Shown: positions 4,047-63,551 of the stretch, piece by piece
How positions within the stretch are numbered: the first letter of the stretch is position 1
Layout: each line of letters starts with the position of its first letter
NCBI GenBank assembly: GCA_025454875.1
Contig: JALONP010000020.1
Coordinates: 1-64,000, forward strand
Reading direction: 5' to 3'
Length of the DNA: 64,000 nucleotides
Origin: Bacteroidia bacterium
GTDB taxonomy: Bacteria; Bacteroidota; Bacteroidia; UKL13-3
Notes under the pieces: model-generated
What the model saw: only the letters and a program-made list of their open reading frames with translations
What the model was told of the DNA's origin: nothing
The model's database searches: none
Translations under genes and position numbers: made by a program

Positions 4047-4368
4047 TTGAATAGCTTACCACCAAGAGTTTAGCTATTTGAATCAACTTGAGTTTACCCA
4101 ATACCTTTTAGGCTAGACTTACTATACCCAAAAGAATTGGTCTTTTTTCTTTTACAAACGGATACTTTTGGTGGTTGGATTCAGTGTTTTACAACAGGGG
4201 AATAGGAATAAAGCTATCACTAAACAACGGCTTTGTGCATGGATGAAGCAAGCCCTATCGATTCGCATGAGCCCCCTTTTAAAAATTAGATATTTAATAA
4301 ATACAGTAAACCACTGTTTAGGTAAATCCAATTCGTAATCCAATGAATTGATGAGAATGGTTTAATAA
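4047..4368. other. Intergenic stretch with no supported gene
   Basis: Lies between the mutase stop and the terminator of the giant secreted protein gene. The longest open frame is 63 codons on the minus strand (4152-4343) and has no recognisable pattern. A TACTTTTG octamer near 4163 resembles a -7 element but no gene follows it. Confidence 0.5.
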
Positions 4369-4408
4369 ACAAAAAGCGGGAACAAGTTTCCTTATTCCCG
4401 CTTTTTGT
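4369..4408. terminator. Rho-independent terminator of the giant secreted protein gene
   Basis: Stem of 14 bp (ACAAAAAGCGGGAA with TTCCCGCTTTTTGT) around a 12-nt loop, 24 bases past the stop of the minus-strand gene. A/T tracts on both sides mean it could work in either direction. Confidence 0.85.
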
Positions 4409-4431
4409 CATCGATAGCTGAAACCGATGTA

Positions 4432-7400
4432 TTATTCTTTAGCGATGCGTTGAACCACCGATTCGTTACTTGTTACAATATTTACAAAATAAATTCCAGA
4501 TCGTGCCGTACCTAATTCATCAATGATTAGTTGGTTTTGCCCTTGCTGTAATTCAACTTGTTTTTCAAATACCAACCTACCCTGCGCATCAGTTACTTTC
4601 AAGATCGCTCGCTCTGCTACTGATGAAGATATGAATACATTGGTAATATCAGCAAATGGATTTGGCGAGATAGAAGCCGTTAGCTTTTGGCTACCTGCTT
4701 GTTCATCTATGTTTATCACCACCGTTCTACTTATGGTTTTAGTACCATCGAAATCCACTTGAACCAAACGATAAAAGACATTTGGTGTAGGACGTTTTAT
4801 TTTAGCAACCTTGGTATCCAAGTACTGATAATTGGTTTGGAGATTAGTTGTTCCGTTTCCTTTAACCTTAGCAATTACCTCAAATGTTCTGCCATCAACA
4901 CTGCGCTCCAATTCGAAATAATCGTTGTTAACTTCGGTAGCGGTTGCCCATGTAACGTTTACATCATTTCGCTGTTTGGTTGCTGCAAAACTTAATAAGG
5001 TAACAGGTACCCCAACTCCAGTTCCACTTCCGATGGTAAACACATTGTTTGTTGTAACGCCAGTGATTGTTTGGTAAAATATGCTTGAACCACTTGCAAC
5101 CGTTCCTGGTGAAGTTACCCAATCCGTATCATTGGTATTAAAGTAAGAAACAAATGAGTTATTGCGATTGAAGAAAGGCAACTCGTTTGCGGCAGTCCAT
5201 CCAAAAGATATTGAAGCAGAATTAGCTCCTCCATTTGATTGCTCTATTACCCATGTTCTGTTCACAGCACCATTGGTATAGGCTGTATCAATTGGGTTGT
5301 ACCCACTATAATTTGAAGTTACGCTATCAATTACCCTGAACTCATAATTGCTATTGTTATTGTTATCAATAATGCTTACTGGGTTGAAGGTACTGTTACC
5401 AACTGGAATATATACAGTATCTGATTTTCCGTAACCACCCACATTGTCAGACCTAAATTTACCGGTTCCATTTGTTGACACATAGCTTGCAGGAGAACCC
5501 TTTGATGCATAGCCTTGCCAAGCAAGCGTTAAATTATTAGACCCAAGGGAAACTATACCATTTTTTAATATGAGCGAATCTCCAACTGTTATCGAACCAT
5601 TCATATTCACACCTGCAGGGTTATTGACTTCCAATTTACGGTAAAATGCACCAGGTATGGTTTGTTGAGCTGTTCCTGCAAGAATTAACTTACCACTGAA
5701 TGCTGAAAGGTTTCCATCAACTGTAACGTTTCCAAATACGGTAAACTCAGTTGCATTGCTACCGAAACTTAACGTTGCTCCATTTTGAACTGTTAAATCC
5801 AATACCTGACGGGCATCAATAACTGATGGCATGTAACTCGCAGTGCTTGGAATGGTTACCCTTGAAACTCCTGTTGGAATGCTTGGACAACTCCAGTTTG
5901 CAGGATTGGCCCAAACCCAGTTTTGAGCACCAGTCCAAGTACCGGCTGAATCAGCTGTAACCATAATGGCTAGTGCATCAGAAGTATCAGCAGGACACAC
6001 ATTTGAAGTAACAATACGTTTGTACCAAATTGTATCAGTTAATGGAACGGGTGTGTAGGTGGCAGTATTATTAACTCCACTAGCTGGGGCAAAACCACTC
6101 ATTGCACTCACGGTTGAACTTAACCAAGTGTAACTGTATGTAGTTGTATCGCCCAAACCAGGAGTGTTTGCTAAGAAGTCGGTTGGCGTGCTTCCATTAC
6201 AAATAACTTGGTCATCACCCGTTGTATTGTTTCCAGCAGATAAATAGTTTACAACCAAAACAGTATCTAAACCTCTACAACCATCAGGATCAGTTGATTT
6301 TACAACATATCTGCCAGGGGTTTGAACAATAACCTGATTTGTTGTAGCAATTTCGGCAGCACTAAATTTGTACACAGTGGTTTCATAGTCATTATCTTCA
6401 GCATAAGCTGCTAAATAAAGCTCATCGCCATTAAAAGCAATGCTTTGGAAAGCCGACTCTCCACCGAATGAACTTCCTACTTGTTCCCACGTTGTTCCGT
6501 TGAATCTATAAACAGTTGATTGATAATTTTGGTTCTCATCAGAGAATGCCACGTATGGAACACCATTCTTAAATGTTAAATTGGTGAAGTAAGAGTAACC
6601 ACCAAATGATGGGCCTACTTTGACCCAATTGGTGCCATTAAATTGGTATACAGAATTGTAACTGTCATCTTCTGCAATGGCAACATAAGGTGTATTGTTA
6701 TCAAACACTAAACTATGATAACGAGCATCTTCTCCGCCAAATGAACTACCAACTTGTTCCCAAATGGTTCCATTGTACTTGTATACGTAAGTTTGATCAT
6801 CATCTCCATCAACAAAAGCCACATAAGGCACTCCGTTGTGTATTTCTAAACTTTGGTACTGACAAGAATATTCACCAAAAGCATCTCCCAACTGCTCCCA
6901 ATCAGCACCATTGTAATAGTATACGACTGATTTTCTATTATTACTCTGATCTTCGAATGCTACATAAGGTGTATTGCCATTAAAACTTAGGCTTTGATAT
7001 TGAGATTCATCACCAAACTTATCGCCTACTTGAACCCAATCTGTTCCATCAAATTTATATAAGGAAATTTGGTAATCTTCATAATCACTAAAGGCTACAT
7101 AAGGAATGCCCTCATTGATACGTAAACTTAAGGTTAAACCATCTATCCAACCTGTTTCGTTACCATCTCCAAAATTACTTCCAACTTGCACCCATGCACC
7201 TGAAGTGAGCGTATATACTGAAATTCTTCCATCATCATCAGCATCTCTGAATGCTACATATGGAGTGTTGCCATCAAAAACCAAACGCTGAACGGCAGAA
7301 TATTCACCACCAAATGAACTACCAACTTGTTGCCAAACAAGTGAATCAGCTTTGAACCATTTGTAAGCGTAACCAGGCACTTGAACAACTGATAACATGT

Positions 7401-10400
7401 TGGTATCTGCACCGCATTGGCTTATGACATCACCTCGTGTAATAATATTAACTGCAGCAGCTGGTGTTTCTTCTACTTTGGCTTTAGTCATCATTGAGCA
7501 ACCAATGCTATCGGTTACAACAACCGAATAAGAACCAATTGGCAAAAGACTTACATTTTGTGTGGTTGCACCTGTACTCCAACTGTAAGTATACGGTGAG
7601 GTACCATTGGATACAGCTAAATTGATACTTCCGGCACTTATATTCACACAACTAGGAGTGATTGTGCTCACAACTTGAGGAACAGGGCTGTTCTTTTGTT
7701 TTACATAAACCGTATCAGCCAATCTACATCCAGCAGGATCGTTTGTTCTTACAACATAGTTCCCTTCACGGTTTGTTGCCAATGTTGTTGAAGTACTAAC
7801 GATGGAAGGAGCAAAATTGTATACAAAAGTTTGACCATCGAAATTTTCTTCATCAGAAAATGCAACATACGCAATCTCTCCATCAAAAGTTAAACTTGCA
7901 CCATATGATTCACCAGTTTTCGGACCACTTACCTTTTTCCAATTCGTTCCATCAAATTGGTAAAGCATTAACACATAGTCATTTCCATCAATAAATGCGA
8001 GGTAAGGAATGGTATCTTTAAAGCTTAAGCTTTTCTCTCTCACTCCACTTTCTCCAAAATCAGAACCTACCTGTACCCAGTCAGTACTATCAAATTTATA
8101 TACAACATTTGCATATGAATTCCCATCAGTAAAGGCAACAAAAGGAATACCATTGTTAACTGCTAAAGACAAACGCTCAGAATATGGACTACCAAACTCA
8201 CTACCAACTTGAACCCATGCTGAACCATTGAACGTGAATACAGAAACTTGTTCATCGTTATCAGGGTCTGTAAATGAAACATAAATTGTAGTGTCGCTGA
8301 TACTTAAATTTTGATACCTTGAATTATCTCCTCCAAATGAGGTACCAACTTGAACCCAAGCTGAACCATTGTACATGTAAACAGTGGTTTGGTAATCATT
8401 GTTACCATCATTAAATGCTACATAAGGTGTATTTACTTTAAAATCTAAACTTACTGTGCTCACATCATCACCAAATGCTCCACCTAATTGAACCCAGTCA
8501 GTACCGTTAAAAGAATAGACCATTACCTCATAACTATCTCCATCTACAAAAGCAACATAAGGTACATTATTATTAAAAGATAATTTTTGCGAATAGGAAT
8601 CATCGTTACCAAACGAACTACCTAGTTTTACCCAGTTATTCCCATCGTGCATGTAAACAGATGTTTGGTAGTCACTATTCCCATCTGAAAGCGCTACATA
8701 TGGAACACCGTTGTTCACTTTCACACTCTGGTCATAAGAGTAATTGCCTCCAAGTGGATCTCCTAATTGCTGTAATTTAAGCGAATCAAGTTCTATCCAC
8801 TGGTATTGGTAACCTGGTATTGCGAATACACTCATATTGGCTGGACTTGTACCACAAGCAAATGCCGAATCGCCTTGAGCTATAAGCGTTGCTTGAGCTA
8901 TTGGTGTTTCGGTAATGTTGGTTAATGCAGTTGCCGAGCAACCTATAGAATCGATTACTGTTACCGAATATGTTCCAATGCTTAGATTTGAAATATCTTC
9001 TGATGTTGCACTGTTGCTCCATGTATAAGAATAAGGAGCTGCGCCTAAGGTAACCGTTAAATTAATTGCCCCTGTACTCGCGTTGCTGCACGAAGTACTT
9101 GTTGCAATTGCGGTTGCAACAGGTGGCTGTATGCTTTGTTGAATTACTGTAACAGTATCCGATTTTAAACAACCACTCGCTTCCGTTTGTATTGCTACAT
9201 AGGTTCCTGTTGTGTTTGCACTAAATGTTTCTAAATCGCTCATGTAAGCATCACCTAATCTGTATACATAAACCTGACTACCACTACCTATATAGGATAC
9301 ATACGGAGTTGCTCCGCTAAAAGCTATTGTTTGGTAATAACTGCCCTCACTGCCAAAATAATCACCTACTTTAACCCAGGCAGTTCCATCGTATTTGTGC
9401 ACTACTGATAGGTTGTCGTTCCCTCCTTCACTTGATGCTACGTAAGGTAAGCCTCCATTAAATCTCAAACTTACATATGAATTCCCTGTACCACCAAATA
9501 CTCCTCCACCAAATGGTACCCAACTAGAACCATTAAAACTGTAAACAACCAATCGTGAATTATTTGAATTATCGGCAAATGCAACATAAGGTACCCCTGC
9601 ATTAAAGGCTAAACTTTGTGAAAAAGAATAATCCGCCCCAAAAGCCGCCCCTACAATTGACCAATTTGCACCATCAAATGCGTATACGGTAGTTTTGTAA
9701 TTAAAACTCGGATCCGACATCACAACATATGGAATACCTCCGTTAAACCCTAAATTGTGACTAGATGACCAACTCCCTCCAAATGATGAACCTACTTGAC
9801 TCCAGGTTGTTCCATCAAATTTGAATACAGAAACTTTGTTGCTATTACTTTGGTCTATAAATGCTACATACGGAGTGTTTCCATCAAAACTTAAACGTGC
9901 TACCCCTCCACTATTTCCAAAGAAACCACCTAATTGAGTCCAGTTTGTACCATCAAATTTATAGACGGCCATCCCTGAATTAGCAAAGCTATTGCATGCA
10001 ACATAAGGTGTACCATTATTAAACACAAGTGACTGACCATAATCGCTGTTGCTACCAAAAGCATTACCCAATTGTTGCCAATTTAAACCATTATAAAAAT
10101 AAACCGAATTCCTATAGTTTTCGTTGCCATTACTAAATGCTACAAAAGGCGTACTATCGTTCACGAATAATGAAGGGGTTTGTGTGGGAAAGCCTCCAAT
10201 TGAATTTCCTATTTGTTGCCAATTTGTAGAATCAACTTTGTACCATTGATAAGTGGACCCTGAAACAGGATTCACACTTAGCACCGCAGGGTTGGTCATA
10301 CAAATCAACGCTGTATCATCTTGTGCAATAAAATTGTCGGCAGTTGGTTTTCTTGCTTTAAGTACTTTTTGAGCACTTGCAGTACAATCAAAACTATCCG

Positions 10401-59152: not shown

Positions 59153-59590
59153 TTATTTTACAAATTGACCCGACATTAAATAATAGGCGGTAGCTGCAGG
59201 CAGTGTGGCATGTTTTACCGTTACCACATAAAATTTCCCTTCGTTGCTAATTTCTGAAATAACTGAATCAATTTGGTAATCAGGAAAACGTTTGTTCAAA
59301 TCCTTTTTTACATTATTAGGCAATTTGGAAGCTTGAAGTGTTTCCACGCGGTTAATCCATTCACCGGTTTTGGTGTATGCAAATGTGTATGTATGCTCTG
59401 CATCTTGAATCCAGTCAACTGTATATTTATCAGGATACTCTTTCCAAACATCAGATTCTTTGCTCAAGGTATTTTGAACATTGTACGTTTTAATAACAGC
59501 TGCCGGAACCTCCGATTCTTTTACAACCTTTTGCCCATAAGCATAAGAGATTGCAAATAATGAGAATACAATGGTTGTAATTTTTTTCAT
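59153..59590 (-). CDS. Exported PepSY-like domain protein
   Basis: A 145-residue secreted protein. Its signal peptide is MKKITTIVFSLFAISYAYG. The mature part resembles the PepSY-like (beta-lactamase-inhibitor-like) family found widely in Bacteroidota: VPAAVIKTYNVQ, then W-x-Y-P-D-K-Y-T-V-D, a GEWINRVETL strand, and the PNNVKKDLNKRFPDYQID helix. It probably acts in the periplasm, perhaps as an inhibitor or scaffold. It lies 10 bases past the nif3 start region, in the same direction, so it may be read into that transcript. Confidence 0.75.
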   Translation of the reverse strand: MKKITTIVFSLFAISYAYGQKVVKESEVPAAVIKTYNVQNTLSKESDVWKEYPDKYTVDWIQDAEHTYTFAYTKTGEWINRVETLQASKLPNNVKKDLNKRFPDYQIDSVISEISNEGKFYVVTVKHATLPAATAYYLMSGQFVK

Positions 59591-59716: not shown

Positions 59717-62700
59717 ATGGCTAATCGGTATTTAAAACCTGCTTATTTTTTAATCATTACCACCATTATACTAGCTACAGGGCTCAACAAAGTTTTGGCT
59801 CAAAACAAACCCTATCGTGACGCCTCTAATCCGCATTACTGGAAAAACAGGAAACCCTTTGAGGGATATTGGCAACAAGATGTGGCTTACCGCATTAAAG
59901 CAAACATTGACGACCAAACGGATATTGTTGATGCAGAGATGGAGCTTACGTATTACAATAACTCACCTGATACGCTAATGTTCCTTTACTTTCACCTTTA
60001 CCAAAATGCATTTATTAAAGGCGGTTATTTAGAACAACTGAACCTTGCCAATAACTTTAAGCAACAGTTTGGTCCCTATGAAGCAAATGGCAAAGGCACT
60101 GAAATTGAATCGGTAGAAATTATTCAAGCCGGTGGTTCAATGCCACGTTACACAGACGAATTTGGGAACATGGCAGTAGTAGATCCAATTGCTACTCGTT
60201 ACAAAGCAACTCCTTGGATAGATTACAGCATTATGCGGGTTGACCTGCAAAAGCCTTTGTTACCGCAATCATCACTTGTGATTAAAATTAAATTTAAAAC
60301 CTATTTCGATGCTGGAGGCAACCAACGCAGGCGCATGAAAACCTTTACCGATAATTGGGGCAATAAACAATATGATGGGGTGCATTGGTATCCGCGCATT
60401 TGCGTTTATGATCGAAAATTTGGTTGGGAAACCGACCAGCATTTAGGCAAAGAATTTTATGGCGAATACGGGAGTTATGATGTGGAGTTAACCTTTCCCA
60501 ATCATTTTGTGGTTGATGCCACAGGCGAATTACAAAACAGAGAATCAGTATTGCCAGCCGATTTACGAGCCAAATTGGATATTAAAAATTTTAAAGACAA
60601 ACCTTGGGATGAAAAGCCCTCTGTTGTAATTACTCCTGATGGTTCAAAAAAAACATGGCATTTTAAATCCATCAATACGCATGATTTTGCTTGGGTAGCC
60701 GACCCTACTTTTAGGATTGGTGAACAAACTCTCACATTGGCAAATGGCGAAACAGTTTCGTGTATAGCACTTGCTCAAGAACCCCATGCACGTGGTTGGC
60801 AAGATGCCGCTGCATTTACCGCCAAGGTAATCGATGTTTACTCAACTGATATTGGTGCATATGCATACCCCAAAATGATTGTTGCCGACGCACGCGATGG
60901 AATGGAATACCCTATGTTAACATTGGATGGCGGATCGAGCCCAAGTTATTATGGTTTGCTTGCACACGAAGTTGGCCATAATTGGTTTTTTGGAATGGTA
61001 GGTACTAACGAGACTTACAGAGCAAGTCTTGATGAAGGTTTCACCCAATTTTTAACCAACTGGAGCATGACCCGCATTTTTGGAGAAGTAAAACCTACTG
61101 CTCAAAATCCAAACCCAATGAGCCGCATGGACCAAACGGTGTACTGGGGGTATTTAAGAGATGCGATTAAAAACCAAGATGCGTTTTTAAATACACATAG
61201 TGATGATTTTGATGGGGCACTAAACCACGGAGGCGGCTACGGACATGTGTATTACAAAACCGCAACCATGTTGTACAACCTGCAATATGTGCTTGGCGAT
61301 AGTTTGTTTTTAGGGGCGATGCAACATTATTTCAACCAATGGAAAATGTGCCATCCATACACCGAAGATTTTCGAAACTCCATTACACAATACACTAAAG
61401 CTGATTTGAATTGGTTTTTTGACCAATGGTTGGAAACGACCAAACGTATTGATTACGGCATTACCGAAGTAGAACTTGAAAAGAAAATTTACAAAGAAGG
61501 AACCAAAGAAGAAACTGCGCGTGAATATGAAATTGAATTTATGCGGTATGGTGAAATGCAAATGCCGATTGACTTTACGGTTGTATTAAAAGACTCATCT
61601 ATTTATAAATATACCATACCGAATACCTATTTTGCTAAAAAAGAAAAAGACAGAACTGTACTACCTGTTTGGAGAGGTTGGGGTAAACTGAATCCGGAAT
61701 ATGAAGCGGTGATTACATTGCCTGCAAAATCAGAAATCAAAAATGTAATCATTGACCCTACTTATCGCCTAGCAGATATAGACCAACGGGATAATAGCAG
61801 CAAAGCTCCTGTGTATTTTAGTTTTGATGACTTTAAAAAGGATGCACCCGATCGCAAGCATTATACCTTAACTTGGCGTCCGGATATTTGGTACAATAGC
61901 ATTGATGGAATCAAAGCTGGATTGAACCTAAGTGGAAATTACCTGAACACAAAGGATGTATTTAGGGCAACCGTTTGGGCTAATACCACCTTGTTAAATG
62001 ATTACACAGGTAAGGCGAGCAATCCACTGAATGCAACATTTTATTACCGTGATTTTGTTCGAAAGCACACGTACCTTAGGTATGATTTAAGGTACTTAGA
62101 TGGTTTAATTTATGCGGTATTTGGCGTAGATAATGAGCGCAAGATTGGTGCAAACACAAACCTTTTAACTGAAATTTATTTTAAAGGATTGAGGCGGAAC
62201 GGAGCTGCCAATTTGGATTATTTACTCTACCCTACTCAATGGAATGCCAATGAAAGCAACAACACGTTAAATATTGACATGACGGTGAGTTATTCGTATT
62301 CAAAAGGGTTTGGTGAATACAAACAAGGACTTCGCGCATCCTTTTTATCGGATTATGCATACTCAAGTATTTACTTGCAATGGATTAACCAACACCAACT
62401 TTCTAAATTTGAATTGCGCTCACGCTTTTTTGTGCAAGCAATTACAGGCGATGATATTGCTCCCGAATCACAGTTGTTTTTAGCAGGTGCCAACCCAGAA
62501 GAAATGATGGAAAATAAATTTATCCGATCGCGCGCATTTGTGCCCACTTCTTGGTTAGCTTATGGAAATAATACCAACCATTTTCATGCAGGTGGAGGAT
62601 TAAACATCAGGGGTTATGCCGGTTATCTTGTTCCCGACAATGTATTAAACACACAAGTGTATTTGTATGCAGGTAACTTGGGTGGATCGATGAATATTGA

Positions 62701-63031
62701 ACTTGATTTTGATAAGTTCATCAACTTTAAACCCAAAAAATTGCAGAAGTATTTTCATATCGACTCTTATTTATTTGCCGATGCAGGTATGATTGGTAAC
62801 ACATTTAAGCAGGGCGAATTTGGCTTAACGCAAAAAAGAGATGTAAACTCGAACATAATGGTAAGTGCTGGTGCGGGGATGGTATTTACCATTAAGCGAT
62901 GGTTAAATTATGATGCCTTTAAGCCATTTGCGTTGCGATTTGATGTACCTTTGTTTTTAAACAATACACCTTTTGTGGATGGAGAATACATACGCTACAG
63001 GTGGATACTTGGCATTAACCGTTCATTTTAA
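59717..63031 (+). CDS. M1-family metallopeptidase with C-terminal Omp85-like barrel
   Basis: A 1104-residue exported protein with an N-terminal hydrophobic signal (about 8-28). Residues about 45-620 form an M1 aminopeptidase-type zinc peptidase: H417-E418-V-G-H421 and the third ligand E440 (LDEGFTQFL) at the standard 18-residue spacing. The GAMEN loop region reads RDGMEYPMLTLDGG. From about 700 the sequence becomes alternating strands. A G-G-G-L-N-I-R965-G-Y motif sits 140 residues before the end, and the protein finishes with RFDVPLF...RYRWILGINRSF. That is the layout of Omp85/BamA-type barrels. I read it as a peptidase held on an outer-membrane barrel. Confidence 0.75.
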   Translation: MANRYLKPAYFLIITTIILATGLNKVLAQNKPYRDASNPHYWKNRKPFEGYWQQDVAYRIKANIDDQTDIVDAEMELTYYNNSPDTLMFLYFHLYQNAFIKGGYLEQLNLANNFKQQFGPYEANGKGTEIESVEIIQAGGSMPRYTDEFGNMAVVDPIATRYKATPWIDYSIMRVDLQKPLLPQSSLVIKIKFKTYFDAGGNQRRRMKTFTDNWGNKQYDGVHWYPRICVYDRKFGWETDQHLGKEFYGEYGSYDVELTFPNHFVVDATGELQNRESVLPADLRAKLDIKNFKDKPWDEKPSVVITPDGSKKTWHFKSINTHDFAWVADPTFRIGEQTLTLANGETVSCIALAQEPHARGWQDAAAFTAKVIDVYSTDIGAYAYPKMIVADARDGMEYPMLTLDGGSSPSYYGLLAHEVGHNWFFGMVGTNETYRASLDEGFTQFLTNWSMTRIFGEVKPTAQNPNPMSRMDQTVYWGYLRDAIKNQDAFLNTHSDDFDGALNHGGGYGHVYYKTATMLYNLQYVLGDSLFLGAMQHYFNQWKMCHPYTEDFRNSITQYTKADLNWFFDQWLETTKRIDYGITEVELEKKIYKEGTKEETAREYEIEFMRYGEMQMPIDFTVVLKDSSIYKYTIPNTYFAKKEKDRTVLPVWRGWGKLNPEYEAVITLPAKSEIKNVIIDPTYRLADIDQRDNSSKAPVYFSFDDFKKDAPDRKHYTLTWRPDIWYNSIDGIKAGLNLSGNYLNTKDVFRATVWANTTLLNDYTGKASNPLNATFYYRDFVRKHTYLRYDLRYLDGLIYAVFGVDNERKIGANTNLLTEIYFKGLRRNGAANLDYLLYPTQWNANESNNTLNIDMTVSYSYSKGFGEYKQGLRASFLSDYAYSSIYLQWINQHQLSKFELRSRFFVQAITGDDIAPESQLFLAGANPEEMMENKFIRSRAFVPTSWLAYGNNTNHFHAGGGLNIRGYAGYLVPDNVLNTQVYLYAGNLGGSMNIELDFDKFINFKPKKLQKYFHIDSYLFADAGMIGNTFKQGEFGLTQKRDVNSNIMVSAGAGMVFTIKRWLNYDAFKPFALRFDVPLFLNNTPFVDGEYIRYRWILGINRSF

Positions 63032-63035
63032 CAAC

Positions 63036-63551
63036 ATGACTCAACATATTGACAAACCGAAACCTGGAACATACGCTCCTTATTTCGATACCTATATTTC
63101 ACGCGTAAAAGGTGAATCGATTTTTGAAGAACTTTCAACTGCCTACATCGAGACCATGGAGCTGGTAACTTCACTTGATGCCGAAACGTTACACGGACGC
63201 TATGCTGAAGGAAAATGGACCATACTGCAAATACTTCAACATATTATTGATACCGAACGTATTTTTAACTACAGGGCTTTGTGCGCAGCACGTGGTGATC
63301 AGAATCCATTACCTGGGTTTGATGAGCAAGCTTATGCAGCCAATGCCCAAACACGCAACGTGAACGACTTGGTTCGTGAACTTTCGTTGGTACGTGCATC
63401 TACTATTGAACTGTTTAAAAGTTTTACACCTGAACAACTTGACCTGGTAGGTACTGCCAATAAAAACCCAATTACTGCAAGGGCTTTATTGTATATGACT
63501 TTAGGCCATGAGTTGCATCACCGCCATATTATTGAAACCCGTTATTTATAA
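63036..63551 (+). CDS. DinB-like metal-binding protein
   Basis: A 172-residue four-helix protein of the DinB superfamily, which includes thiol-dependent S-transferases and damage-induced proteins. The metal ligands fit His in ILQHIIDTER and the pair in TLGHELHHRHII. GKWTILQILQHI is the typical opening of the family's helix 2. The start is ATG 63036, 4 bases past the peptidase stop; the longer frame would run into the peptidase gene. Close spacing suggests one transcript. The substrate is unknown. Confidence 0.82.
   Translation: MTQHIDKPKPGTYAPYFDTYISRVKGESIFEELSTAYIETMELVTSLDAETLHGRYAEGKWTILQILQHIIDTERIFNYRALCAARGDQNPLPGFDEQAYAANAQTRNVNDLVRELSLVRASTIELFKSFTPEQLDLVGTANKNPITARALLYMTLGHELHHRHIIETRYL

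Follow-up and report, generated by a model that had tools for sequence, protein, structure and literature searches.

Can an enzyme of the M1 zinc aminopeptidase family end in an outer-membrane barrel of the Omp85 type, and if so, on which side of the membrane would it work? This question is raised by an open reading frame located at positions 59717-63031 (+) of the 64,000-nucleotide stretch of Bacteroidia DNA analysed here (the window), which codes for 1104 residues and is uninterrupted by stops. A first-pass annotation of the locus had proposed that a peptidase is fused to a barrel on a plan like that of patatin-Omp85 proteins, and that the barrel could hold or export the enzyme at the cell surface. 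The features of the gene are collected in Table 1.

Table 1 Features of the fusion gene, with positions in the window
Feature	Residues	Position	Strand	Basis
M1-peptidase/Omp85-type barrel fusion gene	1-1104	59717..63031	+	relatives of equal length
Signal peptide, hydrophobic run then VLA-Q	1-28	59717..59800	+	sequence reading; helix 8-23 in model; putative cleavage site
M1 N-terminal beta domain, inner boundary approximate	about 52-340	59870..60736	+	VIA-align to tricorn F3, IRAP, ERAP1
Thermolysin-like catalytic domain	about 341-575	60737..61441	+	Pfam PF01433; M1 structure matches
GMEYP motif (counterpart of GxMEN)	395-399	60899..60913	+	E397 invariant 71/71
HEVGH zinc motif	417-421	60965..60979	+	H417, E418, H421 invariant 71/71
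Third zinc ligand	E440	61034..61036	+	invariant 71/71
Presumed catalytic tyrosine	Y512	61250..61252	+	invariant 71/71
M1 domain III beta-sandwich	about 580-685	61454..61771	+	model strands; F3 alignment, chain 2-517
Predicted 16-strand Omp85-type barrel	716-1104	61862..63028	+	pLDDT 92.4; Foldseek, VIA-align
Long loop L6, strands 11-12	914-987	62456..62677	+	strand table; 74-83 long in 71 relatives
IRGY motif	964-967	62606..62617	+	R965 invariant 71/71; [LI]RGY in 22/22 stand-alone barrels
FADAG (FxDxG), strand 13	1020-1024	62774..62788	+	F1020, D1022, G1024 invariant 71/71

The frame adjoins two other genes of the window. A small divergent gene with a weak PepSY-like match is found at 59153-59590 (-), and a DinB_2 family frame is found at 62973-63551 (+); the TTG listed as the start of the latter lies within the fusion gene, near its 3' end, and an internal ATG is likelier as its start.

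The peptidase region

Peptidase_M1 (PF01433) matched residues 414-571 (E 1.1e-15), above its cut-off and as the sole Pfam match in the full protein; the aminopeptidase matches in NCBIfam were all under their cut-offs. The HExxH-x18-E zinc site and the catalytic tyrosine of the M1 family are present, the latter being Y512, to judge by the established role of this residue in the family. Indeed, the three zinc ligands, which the first-pass annotation had reported as complete, are unchanged in all 71 aligned homologs, as are the catalytic E418, E397 and Y512. The exopeptidase motif GxMEN reads GMEYP, with the key glutamate (E397) kept and the final Asn replaced by Tyr.

In the full-length model (pLDDT 87.9, pTM 0.84), the M1 fold extends from residue 52 to about residue 685. 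VIA-align gave Z 28.4 with tricorn factor F3 (rmsd 2.9 over 463 residues), 27.9 with IRAP and 26.7 with LTA4H. The matches to M1 structures stop at domain III, and residues 580-679 form seven strands and zero helix in the model. The helical domain IV, which is found in many, not all, members of the family and normally covers the active site, is absent; after about residue 685 the barrel takes up the remainder of the chain. Griffithsin matches at residues 46-148 were dropped because the model puts the M1 N-terminal domain there. That the M1 part is active as an aminopeptidase, and on which substrate, is inferred (see Discussion).

The barrel region

Residues 690-1104 (415 residues) were folded by AlphaFold2 with 71 relatives. 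The resulting model contains 16 strands (pLDDT 92.4, pTM 0.88), of which strand 16 is short in the DSSP table, and the N-terminal linker (residues 1-20 of the barrel model) has a lower confidence, with pLDDT 64-69. The IRGY motif is located in the 74-residue loop connecting strands 11 and 12, about 140 residues from the end, and the terminal residue is a phenylalanine, so that the strand number, the motif and the last residue are all as first annotated. The best 50 Foldseek matches in the PDB are BamA or TamA only (best E 1.4e-9). VIA-align gave Z 20.5 with D. radiodurans BamA (rmsd 4.1 over 291 residues), 20.5 with Sam50, 19.9 with F. johnsoniae BamA, 18.9 with TamA and 18.6 with FhaC, over ranges that run from the first through the last strand with a collinear strand order. 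In the model, the C-terminal part thus has the form of a BamA/TamA-type outer-membrane barrel with 16 strands, and M1 domain III is followed by this barrel rather than by an ordinary M1 C-terminal domain, the outcome that the first-pass annotation had named as the alternative.

At the level of sequence profiles, the barrel is weakly tied to Omp85. Pfam PF01103 gave no match, even at E 10, and the last 415 residues alone matched the NCBIfam OM_YaeT/BamA profile (positions 448-707) with E 0.0025, far under its cut-off; the profile comparison proposed by the first-pass annotation thus failed with the one model and gave this faint signal with the other. Pfam and NCBIfam, run on the barrel alone and on eight stand-alone relatives, returned zero families above cut-off, as did Pfam on the barrels of the 71 relatives. 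A Nanovirus_C8 match to a barrel-group sequence was rejected as chance. A PDB sequence search by the barrel profile found nothing. With hhalign, the barrel gave 60.5% against TamA-like barrels of related genomes and no match against the BamA barrels of relatives. Stand-alone relatives of the barrel gave 87.5% against the same TamA-like set, over 104 columns starting near the RGY region, and the reversed fusion-barrel profile, used as a control, gave less than 1%.

The absence of PF01103 and BamA profile matches, together with an identity to BamA of 13-14%, could suggest another type of barrel that resembles Omp85 in strand number only, but this is hardly credible, as Foldseek's best 50 matches are Omp85 only with collinear strands, the RGY loop is precisely the one that joins strand 11 to strand 12, FxDxG lies in strand 13, and the stand-alone homologs match TamA-like barrels from the RGY region on where the reversed control does not. 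RGY in L6 and FxDxG are both linked to Omp85 structure and function.

No POTRA domain was found in the fusion; residues 580-685 are the all-beta M1 domain III, which directly precedes the barrel at the place of POTRA in BamA.

Topology and location of the peptidase

Among the 71 relatives, the lengths of loops L2 (12-25), L4 (17-36), L5 (5-10), L6 (74-83) and L7 (9-19) are variable. Turns T1, T2, T3 and T5, and also loops L1 and L3, are constant in length, T4 nearly so; on the periplasmic side, T6 (11-23) and, slightly, T7 (8-11) are variable too. The most variable connections lie opposite the N-terminus, which fits the prediction that the N-terminus is periplasmic.

The first-pass suggestion that the barrel exports the peptidase, or displays it on the cell surface as a type Vd-like passenger, agrees with the manner in which patatin-Omp85 proteins were formerly interpreted (PMC11116518), and a surface peptidase would suit a life of feeding on peptides. 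However, experiments have since placed the patatin domain of PlpD in the periplasm (PMC11116518), and in solved BamA barrels L6 enters the lumen (PMC12611786). Since the loops are asymmetric, the Omp85 topology puts the N-terminus in the periplasm and the PlpD enzyme domain is periplasmic, export of the peptidase is improbable. The strand topology, the loop lengths and the analogy with PlpD point instead to a periplasmic location.

Distribution and separability of the two parts

Same-length relatives occur across related Bacteroidota, in at least 582 confirmed stretches, and the gene was matched in 40 of 40 related genomes. In the order of the source organism, the barrel was found in 61 of 64 genomes, and in 45 out of 45 when a completeness of 90% or more was required. 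With few exceptions, these genomes carry it in a single copy. The open frame is mostly about 1040-1140 residues long, and shorter ones lie mainly on short or fragmented contigs. The fusion is thus a single-copy core gene of the order. Across 296 genomes of the phylum, the barrel profile found matches in 56; none were obtained for many of the other families in the class, and the barrel is therefore not universal in Bacteroidota.

In most relatives the fusion has no conserved neighbours. In about a dozen, it is preceded by a block that we read from the sequences as rlmH-DUF4783-nadC. The long N-terminal extensions of two frames (L122 and L123) were judged by eye to be frame read-through rather than domains.

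Many of the profile matches fall in stand-alone barrel proteins about 400-455 residues long, which come mostly from one other Bacteroidota family (f39); [LI]RGY is present in the 22 distinct ones examined (22/22). Most f39 loci examined are a cluster of greA, often a NUDIX gene, the barrel, usually acetate kinase, a predicted lipoprotein, an EamA-type transporter and phosphotransacetylase, where greA and the two enzymes of acetate metabolism are named from our reading of the sequences. The lipoprotein has a Pfam match to a caspase-like (C14) and/or an SH3 domain. In the greA clusters of L185-L191, L193 and L194, it could again be a peptidase near a stand-alone barrel. In four genomes (G061, G142, G150 and G161), the profile matched both a frame of stand-alone size and one of fusion size; those of G061 (L197 and L198) were both read.

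Two further relatives have lost the enzyme in different ways. L117 (G027, 7100-8920 (-), 606 residues) is a barrel protein whose gene neighbours are rlmH, nadC and a DUF4783-like gene, the block found before the fusion in about a dozen relatives. Its catalytic region is missing, and what is left of the peptidase is a stretch that aligns loosely with the last portion of the M1 part; by sequence and gene order, it is a syntenic ortholog in which the peptidase was lost and the barrel kept. L121 (G024, 4116-7157 (-)) is a distant full-length fusion in which HExxH and the adjoining sequence are destroyed (RELAF...) and RGY, FxDxG and the terminal Phe are kept. The barrel thus outlasts the loss of the enzyme in two separate cases.

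The source genome encodes six M1 proteins. One of them (L006:13-3018 (-), contig C6) is about 1000 residues long, with some 440 residues after its M1 part, and relatives of equal length were seen in 20 other genomes among those examined. The C-terminal profile of the 21 L006-type proteins gave 87-90% against the stand-alone barrels, 85.5% over 290 columns against the combined barrel profile, and 2.8% against the fusion-barrel profile alone. These proteins have no RGY, and many keep an aromatic-x-D motif. Such profile matches suggest that the L006 type is probably a second M1-barrel family.

M1 proteins of about 620-640 residues, akin to the M1 part of the fusion and stopping where its barrel starts, were also observed (L118, L119, L120 and L126). 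In other loci (G002:C15:50121, G015:C21:81115, G001:C1:4245 and others), frames of about 1130-1180 residues have a C-terminal Pfam Omp85 match and possibly code for other enzyme-Omp85 fusions.

Discussion

Computation establishes the architecture of the protein, its intact active site, its Omp85 fold, the loop asymmetry and its status as a core gene. We consider it likely that the fusion is an M1 aminopeptidase of the periplasm that is anchored in the outer membrane and held on its inner side. Sec would carry the protein across the inner membrane, and BAM would presumably insert the C-terminal barrel into the outer membrane. Domains I-III would then hang in the periplasm just below the barrel mouth, at the position of POTRA in BamA, and the barrel would stand in for the helical domain IV. 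On this periplasmic face of the outer membrane, the enzyme could trim peptides or unfolded polypeptides from their N-termini. Anchoring the enzyme may not be the sole role of the barrel, because it is retained in two relatives whose peptidase is missing or has lost its zinc site.

Alternatively, the main activity could reside in the barrel, which would then work as an Omp85-type machine for assembly or translocation, with the M1 part replacing POTRA as a polypeptide-binding platform and the peptidase being secondary or processing the clients. The survival of the barrel where the M1 part is gone among syntenic neighbours (L117) or the zinc site is lost (L121), its occurrence as a stand-alone protein in many genomes and the invariance of L6 RGY and FxDxG all speak for such a role. 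We nevertheless regard it as unlikely, as the active site is intact in all 71 closer relatives, no fixed partner gene adjoins the fusion and the barrel-only relatives have no POTRA or known binding domain; moreover, the needs of barrel structure may by themselves account for the conservation of RGY. A related reading, which we advance tentatively, is that an M1 peptidase at the POTRA position works directly under an Omp85 barrel and processes polypeptides that reach the barrel or are inserted by it, in a subfamily outside the published ten. In that tentative reading the barrel family would have a function of its own, seen in the stand-alone members and in the orthologs without the enzyme.

Returning to the anchored aminopeptidase that we favour, its enzyme shares the catalytic fold and the full active site with tricorn factor F3, ERAP1, IRAP and LTA4H, and domains I-III with the first three. 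It differs from these M1 aminopeptidases in having a membrane barrel in place of helical domain IV, and GMEYP in place of GxMEN. The barrel shares its fold, strand order and L6 RGF/Y motif with BamA and TamA/TamL, but has no POTRA, an identity of about 13-15% and an enzyme attached. POTRA domains are usual, not universal, in the Omp85 superfamily, since the 'noNterm' proteins have none, and the enzyme-bearing Omp85 proteins are largely uncharacterised. One group of these carries PF00149, which is a metallophosphoesterase family.

A close plan is that of PlpD of Pseudomonas aeruginosa (type Vd), the prototype of the patatin-Omp85 proteins, which also joins an N-terminal hydrolase to a C-terminal 16-strand Omp85 barrel and whose enzyme domain is periplasmic, as proposed here for the M1 part. 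The likeness to patatin-Omp85 fusions seen by the first-pass annotation therefore stands for the peptidase-barrel plan and not for the details: the patatin domain is replaced by an M1 zinc peptidase, the POTRA that PlpD has between enzyme and barrel is lacking, and the barrel is missed by the Pfam Omp85 model.

Heinz and Lithgow (2014) have described ten Omp85 subfamilies, of which patatin and 'Metallo' (PF00149) carry an enzyme and none carries M1 (PMC4104836). 'Metallo' proteins resemble the fusion in combining an enzyme domain with an Omp85 barrel, but their PF00149 domain, although termed a metalloprotease in that work, is distinct from PF01433, the true zinc peptidase family of the fusion. 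The stand-alone relatives reported here fit by description the POTRA-less stand-alone barrels of 'noNterm' (PMC4104836). The best reading is that the fusion represents an M1-Omp85 subfamily that matches none of the ten; the 2014 set may have missed it because the Pfam Omp85 model does not match the barrel. A literature search that reached few of the subscription journals found nothing relevant naming M1 together with Omp85. This core gene of the order is invisible to the Pfam Omp85 model. Furthermore, its natural variants (a barrel without the enzyme, a fusion with a dead enzyme and a stand-alone barrel) let the roles of barrel and enzyme be separated, and bear on the question of whether an Omp85 barrel can be simply an anchor or in every case retains a role in transport or assembly.
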